In this document: positions 1,331 through 38,280 of the stretch, in pieces
Layout of the letters: every line of letters begins with the position of its first letter
How positions within the stretch are numbered: position 1 is the first letter of the stretch
Origin: Bacillota bacterium
Lineage (GTDB): Bacteria; Bacillota; SHA-98; UBA4971
Assembly: GCA_030024085.1 (NCBI GenBank)
Contig: JASEJE010000030.1
Location: forward strand, 1 to 38,280
Direction: 5' to 3'
Length of the DNA: 38,280 nucleotides
Notes under the pieces: generated by a model
Told to the model about the DNA's origin: nothing
What the model saw: the letters and a program-made list of their open reading frames with translations, nothing else
The model's database searches: none
Position numbers and translations under genes: made by a program

Positions 1331-1508
1331 CTACTGCCGCTGGAGAAACAGCAAATGGTTTGCGAATTGTACGCTGCACAATCAGCCGATTATCGGCGAA
1401 TTGGCCGCTGGATAATCAGCCGATCATCGGCGAATTGCACGCCGGCCAATCAGCCAATTGCTGGCGAATTGTTCCCGGGATAATCAGCAAGCGGTTGGCG
1501 AAGCGACT
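1331..1508. repeat. 34-bp tandem repeat array, copy A
   Basis: Units begin at 1331, 1365, 1399, 1433, 1467 and about 1501, exactly 34 bp apart. The four middle units start AATTG and share an AATCAGCC core; two of them contain the palindrome GCCGATnATCGGC. The outer units are degenerate. The array near the right end of the window (38072-38280) is the same family in the opposite orientation. There is no coding signal. Confidence 0.85.
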
Positions 1509-8392: not shown

Positions 8393-8461
8393 AACCGACC
8401 AGCCGTGTACATCGTGCGGCCAGGGTGACAGCCCTGGTGGCGCACGTCGGGCCGGTCGGTT
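8393..8461 (+). repeat. Inverted-repeat structured element, copy 2
   Basis: AACCGACC (from 8393) pairs with GGTCGGTT (8454-8461). An inner stem GTGCG...CGCAC encloses the perfect hairpin CCAGGG-TGACAG-CCCTGG. The left flank TGGACACTGAG and GAGCTGGAGTGTAACCGACC match the minus-strand copy at 3255-3368. Confidence 0.6.
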
Positions 8462-8704
8462 CCGCTTTTCGGGGCACTGGTCGCGGACGGGCTGGCGGTG
8501 GGGCGGTGTTGTGTTTCTCGGCGACTGCGCGTATTGGTCTACGGACACGCCCCTGGAACGTACCGACGAATCTGACACTGATAATGGTACTGCTTCTGCA
8601 ACTTACGTCGTGCGAGAATCTGGACAGAGCGGCAGGCACCCCGGGAGGCATGTGTGCACTGGGCGATTGCGACCCCGTGCGTCCCAGGTGGCGGGGCCAT
8701 GCGG

Positions 8705-8809
8705 TGTCCGGCCGGCAGGACATGTGCGGTGCTGCGGACATAAGCCGATCTGGGCGTGGAACTCTAGTTTCATGCGCTGGTGACAGAAGGGTGTACAGCC
8801 GGGCGCACA
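8705..8809 (+). promoter_or_regulatory. Three-dyad upstream activator array (UAS) for the 8909 promoter
   Basis: Three 18-bp dyads of form TGTNC-N8-GNACA: TGTCCGGCCGGCAGGACA (8705-8722), TGTGCGGTGCTGCGGACA directly abutting (8723-8740), and TGTACAGCCGGGCGCACA (8792-8809). The spacing to the -24 element and between dyads is the same as at 16864-16968. The site type and distance fit enhancer binding by a sigma-54 activator. Confidence 0.7.
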
Positions 8810-8908
8810 GGTGTCGCCAGGCGGAGGCACATGAGGACCGCGCCTTAAGGCCTTGCAAGCGGCTGTTTATACACCCTGGCGGGCGGGTTGTGGCGTGGCG
8901 TGGACATT

Positions 8909-8924
8909 TGGCACAGCAGTTGCA
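8909..8924 (+). promoter_or_regulatory. Sigma-54 promoter of the hydrogenase-like activator
   Basis: TGGCAC-N5-TTGCA is a full match to the -24/-12 consensus. Initiation would fall near 8935, leaving a leader of about 35 bases with GGGAGGT at 8953-8959 before the ATG at 8971. This position also argues against the longer open frame upstream being coding. Confidence 0.8.
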
Positions 8925-8970
8925 TTTATGCAAGGATTGCCGCGCTGATGCAGGGAGGTATGGTGGCTTC

Positions 8971-11415
8971 ATGAGCGTCATAGGCACAGACGAGAGCAGG
9001 TGCAGGAAATGCTACGCCTGCATAAGAGAATGCCCGGTGAAGGCCACCAAGGTGGAGGACGGCCGGATGCGCGTTGTTGACGAGATTTGCGTTGCATGTG
9101 GTGAGTGCCTCGAGGCGTGCGCAGTCCGGGCCAGGTACAGCGAGGACGCTGTTCCGCTGGTCGAGTCGTTTCTGGCTGAAGGGAGCGTCATCGCTATCCT
9201 TGACCCGTCCTTTCCGGCGGCCTTTCCCACGGTCACGCCAGGTCAGGTGGTGGCCGGCCTTTCGGCACTGGGGTTCTCGGAGGTGCATGACACGTCGCTC
9301 GCCGTGAAGCGCGTGCTTGAGGCTTACCGGGCGACGCTCGCCCAGGTGGCCGGAGAGGCGGCGGCAGGCGTGCGGACCACGGGGGAAGCGATGCCGCTAC
9401 GCTCGTCCGCCTCGAGAATAAGCTCGATGTGCCCTGCTGTCGTGCGCCTTGTCGAGAGGCACTACCCCGATCTCGTCGGGAATCTCATTCCGGTGGTTTC
9501 GCCTCCCGTGGCCGCAGCACGGGCAATACGTGGGGCCCTCTCTGGCGGCGAGGGACCCACCGGCGCCAGGATCGTGTTCGCAGGCCCCTGCGTTGCCTGG
9601 AAAGCTGAGGCAGCCGAGCTCGGCGAAGCGTCCAGGGTCGATGCCGTCCTTACATTCGATGAGCTTGCTGCGATGTTTGAGTCCAGGGACATCGTCCTTC
9701 GGGACCTTGTTCCCCGCGGCCTGGACGGGGCCGTCGCCCCGAGGGAGCGACACACAGTCTTTGCGGGTGGGCTCTCGTGGTTGATGGGGATGTCTAAAGG
9801 GCTGTCCGACGACCACCTCGTCATCGCAGCGGGCAGGTCGAGGTGCATCGAGGTCATGGACGATCTGGCGCGGGGGGCTCTCACGCCCGCGTTCGTTGAC
9901 GCGTCCATGTGTCGTGGTTGCCTGGACGCGCCCATACTCCGCAGGCGCTCATCGATCTCCGTGCGCAAACGCGTGTGCCGCGTCTTTGCGTCGGGGGGTG
10001 AGGTGCGTGGCGGCGCCGGTGTAGGGGAGGCCGCTGACGGCGAATGCGACCCGGGCCAGGTCGGGTACGAGGCCTCCAGCAACGCGATCACTGCTGCCGC
10101 TGCGGCGGGTGGCGCGCACGGCACGGGCGGCGCGGGTGGCAGGCAGACGATAGACGCCCGCGTGCTCGAGCGCACCTTCAAGCCGGGCGGTCTCAGGCTA
10201 CCGATCCCCAGCGAGTCCGAGATAGCGGAGATCCTCGCGTTTTCAGGGAAACTGTCGCCGCAGGACCACCTGGACTGCGGGATGTGCGGCTACCCGACGT
10301 GCAGGGCATACGCCATCGCCGTCTACCAGAACATGGCGCGGTCCGACATGTGCGTGCAGTATCTCGTGGATAGGCTCGAGGACAAGGTCGAGCACATGAA
10401 GGCTGAGCTGGTATCGGTGAGGACGTCGTCCTTCGACGACATATACGGCGCGAGCCACCAGATCCGCGTGGCAAAGGACCTCGCCGAAAGGGCCGCAAGA
10501 AGCGGGTCCACCGTGCTCCTGCTCGGCGAGAGCGGCGTCGGCAAGGAAGTCTTCGCCCGGGCCATCCACGCTGCAAGCTCGCGGCGGGGCGGGCCGTTTG
10601 TGAGCGTGAACTGCGCTGCCATCCCCGACAACCTGATGGAGTCGGAGCTCTTCGGCTATGTGGAGGGTGCGTTCACAGGGGCCGCGAAGGGCGGCAAGCC
10701 TGGCAAGTTCGAGCTGGCATCGGGAGGCACCATCTTCCTGGACGAGATCGGCGACATGTCCCTTCAACTTCAGGCGAAGCTGCTGCGCGTGCTGCAGACC
10801 CACAAGATCGAGCGCGTCGGCGGGACTCGCGAGATCGACGTGGACGTGCGGGTCATGGCCGCCACGAACAAGGATCTCAAGGCGATGGTGGAGCAGGGCA
10901 CGTTCAGGCTGGACCTATACTATCGCCTCAACGTGGTGACCATCCGCATACCGCCCCTGCGCGAGCGGATAGAGGACATTCCACTCATCATCAGCAGGTC
11001 GCTGGCCAAGCTGTCGGCACGCTGCCCGACGAAGGTGACGTCGGTGTCACCCGAGGCGCTGCGGATCCTGCTCGACTACGACTGGCCTGGGAACGTAAGG
11101 GAGCTTGAGAACGTCCTCGAGAGGGCGCTCAACCTCGCGGACGGCGAGGTCATCGAGGTGGAGCACCTACCCGAGCACGTTGTGAGCGCGGCCAGAGGCG
11201 CAAGCCGCCTGGCCGTGCAACGGGCGGGCGAGGCTCTGGACGATGTCGTTGCCAGGGCCGAGCAGGAGGCGCTCCTGGAAGCCCTCAAAGCGACGAACAA
11301 CAACAGAAGCCGCGCTGCGAAAAAGCTCGGCATCTCGCGCTCGGCGTTTTACGAGAAGCTACGGAAGTACAAGATCGCGTACGGCCCACCGCCTCAGCTC
11401 CAGGCCCGCCCGTGA
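8971..11415 (+). CDS. [FeFe]-hydrogenase-like Fe-S sensor fused to a sigma-54 activator
   Basis: An 814-residue cytoplasmic regulator. Two [4Fe-4S] ferredoxin motifs come first (C11, C14, C17, C21 and C40, C43, C46, C50). Residues about 60-335 resemble the hydrogenase large-subunit C-terminal domain, with degenerate H-cluster motifs: SSMCPAVV near 155, GPCVAWKAE near 208 and MCRGC near 315. A Gly/Ala linker is followed by another Fe-S motif near 436-462 (CGMCGYPTC...C). The AAA+ module has GESGVGKE near 521, GAFTGA near 567 and [10 protein letters not shown] near 587; a Fis-type HTH lies near 778-802. ATG 8971 follows a sigma-54 promoter and GGGAGGT. Related HsfB-type sensor proteins pair such a domain with PAS or phosphatase modules; here the output is transcriptional. 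I infer redox or H2 sensing, and self-activation through the dyads upstream. Loss of canonical motifs makes catalysis unlikely. Confidence 0.88.
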
Positions 11416-30610: not shown

Positions 30611-30757
30611 TACTGCTCTATCACCTATGCAGTTCCTGGCGAATTCGTCGCCCGCCGGGCCGTCCGGGACCTTTGCCACACGGGTCCGAGGCCAGCCAAT
30701 CGGCAATTCGATCGCCGGAAGGGGCGTGAGGCTGCTTATCAGGCAAAGTAGTACTAA

Positions 30758-30883
30758 GTGAGGGTTTAGCGATGCTCCCGATTTCGCTTTCGTCAGGGCG
30801 CCCCGCGTGAAGCGCGATCCCCGACGGCAATGGCGAGATCCCTACGGTCGCTGGGAAGTAGGCAGGAATCAACGAACCCTCAC
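30758..30883 (+). ncRNA. Candidate structured RNA closed by a 9-bp stem
   Basis: GTGAGGGTT (30758-30766) pairs perfectly with AACCCTCAC (30875-30883). Between them three smaller stems can be drawn: GCGA/TCGC, CGTC-A-GGG with CCC-C-GACG, and a second GCGA/TCGC near 30832-30851. The right part reads GGGAAGTAGGCAGGAATC, which resembles the GGGAAGCAGGAATC often seen at right ends of IS605-family elements (omega-RNA region). No tnpB gene is present. It could be an IS605 remnant or a stand-alone RNA. Confidence 0.4.
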
Positions 30884-31005
30884 CATTATTGCTCTGTCAG
30901 ATACGAAATGCCATTCGGTTTGGCACGGCGGCGGGTCTGGCGGGCTTGTTTGGCGGGCCAACTCCTGGCCCTGGTCGCCTTTTCCGCGCAGTTCGCGGGT
31001 AAGGC

Positions 31006-31550
31006 GTGATGCGCGGAACGCGTGATGCGGAAAGAGTGATCTACGTCAGCGGTCGGTTCCGGTGCGTGACGTACGGAACGGGTAGGGCTCGGACCAGTGA
31101 TGCGTATCACTCATCAGCCTTCAATGATGACACAGGGAACCGCTCAGGAGGAACCCATGATGTGCGTCACCCGTCCTGCGTCAACAAGAGACGTGTGGAA
31201 CGCTTCATTGAGAACGCGTGATGCTGGGAACGGCCGAGGAAGAACTCGCGATGTACGTCACCTATCCCGCTTCAACGAGTGACGTATGGAACGATTCACG
31301 AGGAACCCGTGACCCAGGGAACGGGTCAGGCGGCAGCGATGATGTACGTCACCGATTGGCCGCGGAAGCGTGACCCAGGGAACGGGAGAAGCCCGACGAG
31401 TGATGCACGCCATCCTTTCCATGGCATGTGTGACGTGGGGAACGGGCAGGGCGGGACCAGTGATGTACATCACTGGATGGTTTGTAAGCGTGATGTAGGG
31501 AACGGCCCCGGAGGAATCCGTAATGCACGTCAGCCGTCCTCTCAAGAGAC
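31006..31550. repeat. Degenerate satellite with 30/30/31-bp phasing
   Basis: Units starting GTGAYG (or a one-base variant) occur at 31006, 31036, 31066, 31097, 31127, 31157, 31188, 31218, 31248, 31279, 31309, 31339, 31370, 31400, 31430, 31460, 31490 and 31520. Two unit types largely alternate: one continues TGATGTACGTCAC (near-palindromic; GTGATGTACATCAC at 31460 is perfect) and one continues GGGAACGG. It is read through by several frames but none is sustained, so I regard it as noncoding. Confidence 0.88.
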
Positions 31551-31619
31551 GGCACTGCCGGGTACTCCATATGCAAGAGAGCAGTACCAGGTGCGGCTTT
31601 TGAAGCGCTCTTCTGAGCA

Positions 31620-31757
31620 CAGGCGGCGCGATGGGCACAGGCGGCGCGATGGGCGCGGGCAGTGCGATGGGCGCGGGCAGTGCGATGGGCGCCGGCAGTG
31701 CGATGGGCGCCGGCAGTGCGATGGGCGCCGGCAGTGCGATGGGCCGCGGGAGTGCGG
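31620..31757 (+). repeat. 18-bp tandem repeat
   Basis: About seven units of GCGATGGGCGCSGGCAGT run up to the coiled-coil membrane gene. In frame they would give six-residue repeats (MGAGSA or CDGRGQ), but no start with a ribosome site precedes them. Confidence 0.85.
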
Positions 31758-31797: not shown

Positions 31798-32091
31798 ATG
31801 CTATTGCCGATCATCAAAAAGTGGGCGCCATGGATCCTTGTCGCCGTGCTCGTAGCCGCAGTCGTGTTCATGGGGACCAGGTGGTATCAGCACGACCGCC
31901 TGTTGCGCGAGGCCCTCGAGGCGAAAGACAAGGCCGAGCAGGCGCTGAAGAGCATGGCGTCAGTTGAGGAGCAGATGAAGGCAATCCTGGAAAATGTGAA
32001 AAGGCTCGACGAGAAACAGGCGGAGATAGATGCGCGGGTCCGCGAGCGCGATAAGAGGCTCGAGGACCTTGAGAGGAGGACGAAGAAGTGA
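31798..32091 (+). CDS. Membrane-anchored coiled-coil protein (Rz/i-spanin-like layout)
   Basis: A 97-residue protein: one N-terminal membrane segment (about residues 10-28, PWILVAVLVAAVVFMGT), then a long heptad-rich coiled coil of Glu, Lys, Leu and Arg to the end. GGAGGTGA lies 7 bases before ATG 31798, so the longer frame that runs through the satellite upstream is not used. It overlaps the next gene by four bases (GTGA), indicating translational coupling. An inner-membrane anchor plus periplasmic coiled coil paired with an exported coiled-coil partner is the layout of two-component spanins. Sequence homology to Rz is not evident. Confidence 0.75.
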   Translation: MLLPIIKKWAPWILVAVLVAAVVFMGTRWYQHDRLLREALEAKDKAEQALKSMASVEEQMKAILENVKRLDEKQAEIDARVRERDKRLEDLERRTKK

Positions 32092-37791: not shown

Positions 37792-38071
37792 TTCAGGTGG
37801 AGACCGCCTCACCCACCTGATCCACCTGTGCGTACCGTATCATTCCTACCAAACGCAGTCAATACAACCCCCGATCGCGGCAGGTGCAGTCACGGTGGAT
37901 TTGGTCACGGTAGGCTGCGGTGCAGCGGGATCGGTCACAGTGGGACGTCAACAATCGGCTCAGCGTGGAGGGGGTGGCACGGCGGGATCGGCACAGTAGG
38001 ATCGGTTACAGTGAGCTTGGGCATGAAGGCGTCCGCACGAAGGTCTCAGCGCCGCGGTATCAGGTGTTGCC
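37792..38071. repeat. Noncoding stretch with a loose 15-bp period
   Basis: No gene is seen. Between about 37886 and 38015 GGTCACGGTGGAT-like units recur at multiples near 15 bp (37888, 37903, 37919, 37933, then 37990 and 38004). Confidence 0.4.
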
Positions 38072-38280
38072 AACTCGCCGGTGGCTGGGTGTTTGGTCGG
38101 GTGCTAATTCGCCAATTATCGGCTGATCGGCCGGCGGCCAATTCGCCGACGGTTGGACGATTGGCCAACGCCCAATTCGCCAATGGTTGGCTGTTTCGCC
38201 AGCGACGAATTCGCCAGTGGCTGGATGTTTGGTCGGGTGCTAATTCGCCAATTATCGGCTGATCGGCCGGCGGCCAATTC
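38072..38280. repeat. 34-bp tandem repeat array, copy B
   Basis: Units starting AATTCGCC (AACTCGCC in the first) lie at 38072, 38106, 38140, 38174, 38208, 38242 and 38276, exactly 34 bp apart. A 63-bp block recurs after 136 bp, that is, four units. The unit AATTCGCCAATTATCGGCTG is the reverse complement of the core in the array at 1331-1508. It continues past the window edge. Confidence 0.9.

Follow-up and report, generated by a model that had tools for sequence, protein, structure and literature searches.

The stretch of DNA analyzed here (hereafter the window: 38,280 bp of contig JASEJE010000030.1, from the 3.1-Mb Bacillota genome G000) carries an array of 18 short units at 31006-31535 (+ strand), lying upstream of the operon at 31798 and co-directional with it. 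The feature reaches beyond the coordinates proposed by the initial annotation: the nhmmer model, combined with the analysis of terminal inverted repeats (TIRs) and target duplications (TSDs), delimits a whole element at 30887-31586 (+ strand), which belongs to the 18-unit subfamily of what we describe below as an IS701-type MITE with a phased array. The element starts with the left TIR TATTGCTCTGTCAGATACG (30887-30905, + strand), ends with the right TIR (31571-31586, - strand; reverse complement TACTGCTCTCTTGCAT) and is bordered by degraded TSDs, CCAT at 30883-30886 and CCAG at 31587-31590. Its array is enclosed by a conserved 5' flank (AAATGCCATTCGGTTTGG...; 30906-31005, + strand), common to short array-less MITEs, and by a conserved 3' flank that extends up to the right TIR (31536-31570, + strand). 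One short MITE with IS701-type ends and without array lies just upstream (30611-30753, + strand; flanks CTGA and CTAA); the intervening stretch, 30754-30886, is bounded by AAGTGAGGGTT and AACCCTCAC, and similar sequence is present beside other copies of the element. Between the element and the operon, seven copies of the 18-bp repeat GCGATGGGCGCCGGCAGT occupy 31628-31756 with 92% matches. A 34-bp repeat family, GCCAATTCGCCAATGGTTGGCTGATTGGCCGGCG, forms two further, oppositely oriented arrays, one close to each end of the window (1342-1502 and 38069-38280); the other G000 stretches retrieved contained no copy of it. The window also encodes a 996-aa protein (8425-11415), probably a hydrogenase-like sensor-regulator, in which a Fis-type HTH and a sigma-54 activator domain are combined with Fe-S domains and the large-subunit domain of an iron-only hydrogenase.

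The 18 units of the array follow the order BABABABBABBABABABA and start at 31006, 31036, 31066, 31097, 31127, 31157, 31188, 31218, 31248, 31279, 31309, 31339, 31370, 31400, 31430, 31460, 31490 and 31520, the step pattern 30, 30, 31 bp running four times and being followed by five 30-bp steps (mean 30.2 bp). The self-match of the array at lag 91 reaches 0.48, compared with a best value of 0.35 for lags 20-119 in 500 dinucleotide-preserving shuffles. The phased units reported by the initial annotation are thus present, as are their sequence drift and the two unit types that it distinguished, which mostly alternate. The A unit, with consensus close to GTGAYGTACRTCAC, is indeed a 14-bp palindrome with GTGA-N6-TCAC half-sites; the B unit, with consensus close to GTGAYGTAGGGAACGG, has the same left half-site GTGA but GAAC as its right half. 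Examples in the window are the A units GCGATGTACGTCAC (31248-31261, + strand) and GTGATGTACATCAC (31460-31473, + strand), the latter perfectly palindromic, and the B unit GTGATGTAGGGAACGG (31490-31505, + strand), with its right half GAAC. The underlying period is a 91-bp block of three units; copies with 15 units additionally show a 273-bp, nine-unit higher-order repeat, in which units 1-6 resemble units 10-15. The claim that the spacing is close to three helical turns stands only as an approximation, for 30.33 bp corresponds to 2.89 turns at 10.5 bp per turn, equivalent to about 40 degrees of rotation per unit in relaxed DNA; sites would share one face only if DNA in the complex had ~10.1 bp per turn. 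No AA/TT phasing at 10-10.5 bp is present, and hence no sign of intrinsic bending. Of the suggested phased protein binding or DNA bending, intrinsic A-tract bending is therefore rejected; that the array binds protein is the likeliest interpretation.

The array had been taken for a local feature, but our array search of the genome revealed ~40 dispersed copies of the element at unrelated intergenic places. The 14-mer of the A unit, with up to two mismatches, has 184 forward occurrences compared with 4 for a reversed control, and the profile (nhmmer) of the dispersed element was built from such places, 37 stretches around matches having been retrieved. Gap-free alignments of the best dispersed arrays extend over ~300 bp, with 70-82% identity. 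The order BABABABBABABABA and the spacing 30, 30, 31 are both exact in nineteen copies, while the 18-unit subfamily includes the window copy and one copy in another species (L126 in G004); a 21-unit version also exists, and the phase is the same in all. Length differences among the long copies consist of three-unit (91-bp) blocks, so that the phase is kept. Full copies retain ~100 bp of conserved 5' flank and a short conserved 3' flank, are bounded by TIRs whose sequence across copies is TACTGCTCTGTCAGATACG at the left end and TACTGCTCTGTCACATATG at the right end, and measure about 600-700 bp in full length. Given this fixed length and order of the array (15 or 18 units), its conserved flanks and TIRs and its inclusion in a mobile element, the term satellite is not appropriate. 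All copies are intergenic, no called ORF overlapping the element in the 43 copies or fragments that were scored, and no common neighbor gene or common distance was found among them.

Identical YTAR TSDs are present at both ends of four copies (L069, L074, L057 and L080) and are degraded in others, while short MITEs of ~125-145 bp possess the ends of the element but no array. The combination of TIRs matching IS701 ends, YTAR TSDs, exclusively intergenic copies and array-less short MITEs identifies the element as an IS701-type MITE carrying a phased array. It shows the TIRs, TSDs, lack of a transposase gene, multiple intergenic copies and insertion polymorphism by which MITEs are recognized. Its length of about 600-700 bp exceeds the usual <500 bp, a feature that is typical rather than strict for MITEs (PMC10969869) and does not by itself exclude membership.

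The parentage of the element can be traced to IS701-family insertion sequences of two related genomes, G013 and G016, which its ends match. In G013 (locus G013:C54) the right end CTAATACTACTCTGTTAGATACGAAATACC adjoins an IS701-family transposase (NF033540, E=1e-118), and in G016 an IS copy (L172) has closely matching ends on both sides of a broken reading frame. The IS701 transposase (DDE_5, PF13546) was found neither in G000 nor in the other five genomes of the genus, which makes present mobility doubtful. Short-read assemblies often lose IS copies, and such a loss is possible in G000. Descent from IS701 does not need an autonomous partner in the same genome, whereas one is expected for a currently active MITE. 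We also considered as parent an IS1182-type transposase of the same genome (L137, G000:C36), but discarded it because the nearby TAGTACTACCCTGTCA motif points away from the gene; this IS1182-like transposase is frame-broken and lies beside a CRISPR array with the repeat GTTCCAGTCATTGACCCGACGACGAGGGGACTGAAAG.

Comparison with related species documents both the persistence and the loss of the element. Some copies are orthologous between species (L069/L122, L058/L123, L052/L124, L055/L128 and L059/L130), with L123 lacking nine units relative to L058 and L130 being decayed; at the L063 site of G004 the element is absent, its flanks being joined with only a short unrelated stretch between them. At four of the shared copies (L069/L122, L058/L123, L052/L124 and L055/L128) the flanks are often 92-99% identical, compared with 80-86% for DNA farther away, as if these regions had been recently exchanged between species. 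The downstream operon of the window locus is kept in G001, G002, G003 and G004, all four without the array. In G003 and G004 this site shows a ~30-bp array-like remnant, similar to one and a half units, so an element may have been present there in the past. In the sister species G005, nothing matched the element at E<=1e-3. When the collection was scanned for the A-A pattern, two named genus members, UBA6811 and AS02xzSISU_21, proved to have copies, and scattered pairs appeared in unrelated taxa.

The many copies also disclose which parts of the array are constrained. Among the 25 long copies, the 437-bp core has accumulated 4 indels, compared with 17 for ~110 bp of the 5' flank, a rate per bp ~17-fold lower in the array; as a control, however, this flank may be exceptionally indel-prone, given its many short repeats. 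The proposal that spacing is kept better than sequence is therefore borne out across copies. The TGA of A units is invariant in the same 25 copies, and over 39 copies or fragments the cells that differ amount to 1.7% for TGA and 1.3% for the GAAC of B units, compared with 18% for the linkers. Private and shared mutations, in a count that ignores gene conversion between copies, number 34:11 at key sites and 123:215 in linkers (Fisher p=1.2e-6). Key-site mutations are thus mostly private and linker mutations mostly shared, indicating that damage to half-sites does occur, but that the copies affected seldom give rise to new ones. That the order of the probable protein-binding sites and their exact spacing have been kept while the surrounding sequence drifted suggests that the element needs them to spread.

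The observations establish that the element has the structure of a MITE, is present in many copies, conserves the order and spacing of its units and rarely multiplies once its sites are damaged. To these we can add a functional reading, which we regard as probable: the element is a MITE with IS701 ends whose array of putative sites would be cooperatively bound by a dimeric protein and would aid its spread. The non-autonomous element would have been moved by an IS701 transposase acting in trans. Its interior would constitute a directional array of 15 putative protein-binding sites (18 in the window), presenting GTGA every 30, 30 and 31 bp, with right halves alternating between TCAC and GAAC, and would have grown as blocks of three units (91 bp) and nine units (273 bp) were duplicated. 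A dimeric DNA-binding protein may then occupy the array cooperatively, and the resulting complex could help the element to spread, for instance by wrapping or folding it so that its ends meet. Binding of protein to the array, needed for spread, is what the pattern of sequence conservation most likely reflects.

Other explanations of the same data have to be considered. The element might have been domesticated, each copy being a selected regulatory, nucleoid-organizing or segregation-related site that benefits the host. Private mutations are depleted at TGA (13 vs. 22 expected, p=0.025) and at GAAC (9 vs. 18 expected, p=0.017), and this frequency of about half the expected value suggests that some constraint, reflecting host function, may act on resident copies. 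Copies are also biased in orientation, since tandem-gene contexts are co-oriented with the element in 17 vs. 4 cases (p=0.007) and the right-hand gene is co-directional for 31 of 42 copies (p=0.003); a leading-strand cause of this bias was not sustained, GC skew near copies agreeing in 25 of 40 cases (p=0.15, not significant). Arrays without IS701 ends in other families (see below) would fit host benefit as well. However, the constraint consists mostly in a failure to multiply rather than in missing private mutations, and the decay or absence of copies at orthologous sites of sister species, the lack of matches in G005 and the lack of a shared neighbor gene or distance speak against selection for each resident copy, so that we consider host benefit unlikely, if still worth weighing. 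We assign a lower probability to the array being a functionless minisatellite, a passenger repeat trapped in a MITE, with a regularity that would reflect only the duplication history of 91-bp blocks. Blocks of 91 and 273 bp do exist and repeat number changes by three units, but neutral repeats would show none of the contrasts described above, namely half-site bases 10 times less variable than linkers, a ~17-fold deficit of indels per bp relative to the flank and the strong difference in private and shared mutations.

The two remaining explanations appear very improbable. The initial annotation envisaged that the array acts locally on the operon at 31798, by regulation or bending, in keeping with the position and direction of the array in the window, and the absence of the array in close relatives was to count against it. 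Such absence was found in part: G001, G002, G003 and G004 conserve the operon without an array at the orthologous place, and ~40 other copies precede unrelated genes; A-tract phasing is also lacking. Equally remote is the idea of a structured RNA, in which the transcribed palindromes would be elements of a conserved fold. Single sequences do fold into structures stabler than shuffles (z = -7.4 on the + strand and -3.4 on the - strand), yet a row of palindromes yields this stability anyway, while folding 21 copies together yields a weak consensus (-93.5 kcal/mol vs. -275 for one copy) with almost no covariation (-0.87 kcal/mol over the 21 copies), the term on which we rejected a structured RNA element. 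We further discarded CRISPR, because the units do not form invariant repeats with unique spacers and the linkers are conserved between copies, and a coding repeat, since a period of 91 bp is not divisible by 3 and the copies are free of called ORFs.

Among known systems, bacterial MITEs resemble the element in their TIRs, short target duplications, absence of coding capacity, many intergenic copies and IS-family ends in relatives, but differ in being usually <500 bp long rather than about 600-700 bp (PMC10969869) and in that here the bulk of the element consists of binding-site-like units arrayed in phase and in a fixed order. Tandem arrays inside MITEs are not mentioned in that review (PMC10969869), and nothing on IS701 MITEs or on phased arrays inside MITEs was found in the limited open-access literature that we searched. 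Correia elements of Neisseria, MITEs with an IHF site, similarly carry a site for a DNA-bending host protein, but only one, compared with at least 15 phased putative sites here (PMC10969869). BOX elements of Streptococcus pneumoniae (boxA-[boxB]n-boxC) are likewise dispersed and intergenic, and their fixed ends also enclose a tandem module (PMC3049150); this comparison regards architecture alone, without any claim of sequence relation, and our element differs by its 30/30/31-bp module, two alternating unit types, set order and preferred number of 15 units. Galileo/Foldback transposons, which have multiple internal transposase-binding sites (PMC3688188), are comparable in that repeated sites for a protein, putative in our element, lie inside a DNA transposon as part of its machinery, but are eukaryotic members of the P superfamily having their sites in long TIRs and no comparable phasing.

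Turning to the protein that might bind the putative sites, the layout GTGA-N6-TCAC is that of CRP-type operators. The consensus of the A unit has the CRP/FNR half-site arrangement and the B units its left half only; long phased arrays with asymmetric B units are, however, atypical of CRP/FNR-family operators. G000 encodes a CRP-family protein with the recognition helix RETVTR (L050:8417-9112), and on this basis a CRP-type regulator can be tentatively proposed as candidate ligand, although we doubt the assignment. CRP-family proteins occur in nearly all bacteria and are present also in array-free relatives, which renders the link weak, a lead only.

A units at 30/31-bp steps also form arrays in two genomes from other families of the class, G016 and G015, where no IS701 ends were detected. 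The function of the array need not, therefore, be tied to an IS701 transposon, and the reappearance of unit and spacing beyond the MITE suggests a modular array having a function of its own. Different arrays were encountered as well. A phased palindrome array TGCCAAG...CTTGGCA, with steps of 32 and 73 and a block of ~105 bp, is found in G002 (L205, G002:C82, 430-960), where it occupies the same intergenic place as the window array, and in G015 (L133, G015:C8, 4460-4830); another periodic array, with lags of 31/63/94, lies directly upstream of the 30-bp array of G016 (L084, G016:C6, 5790-6100). It is conceivable, if rather improbable, that this little-studied class of Bacillota harbors several unrelated families of intergenic arrays, namely the 30.3-bp GTGATGTACRTCAC, the 32/105-bp TGCCAAG...CTTGGCA, the 31/63/94-bp and the 34-bp families, with palindromic sites phased at about three helical turns. 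By this speculative extension, they would represent a new kind of element, cooperatively wrapped by protein, either transposon-borne or free-standing, in which spacing would be what is chiefly inherited.

In the usual view of bacterial MITEs, the two ends matter and the interior hardly does. In the present case, however, a long series of strictly spaced and ordered site-like units is strongly constrained inside a MITE, and its copies provide a natural record of which bases matter, so that the role of internal cis sites for a non-autonomous element or its host becomes directly testable.
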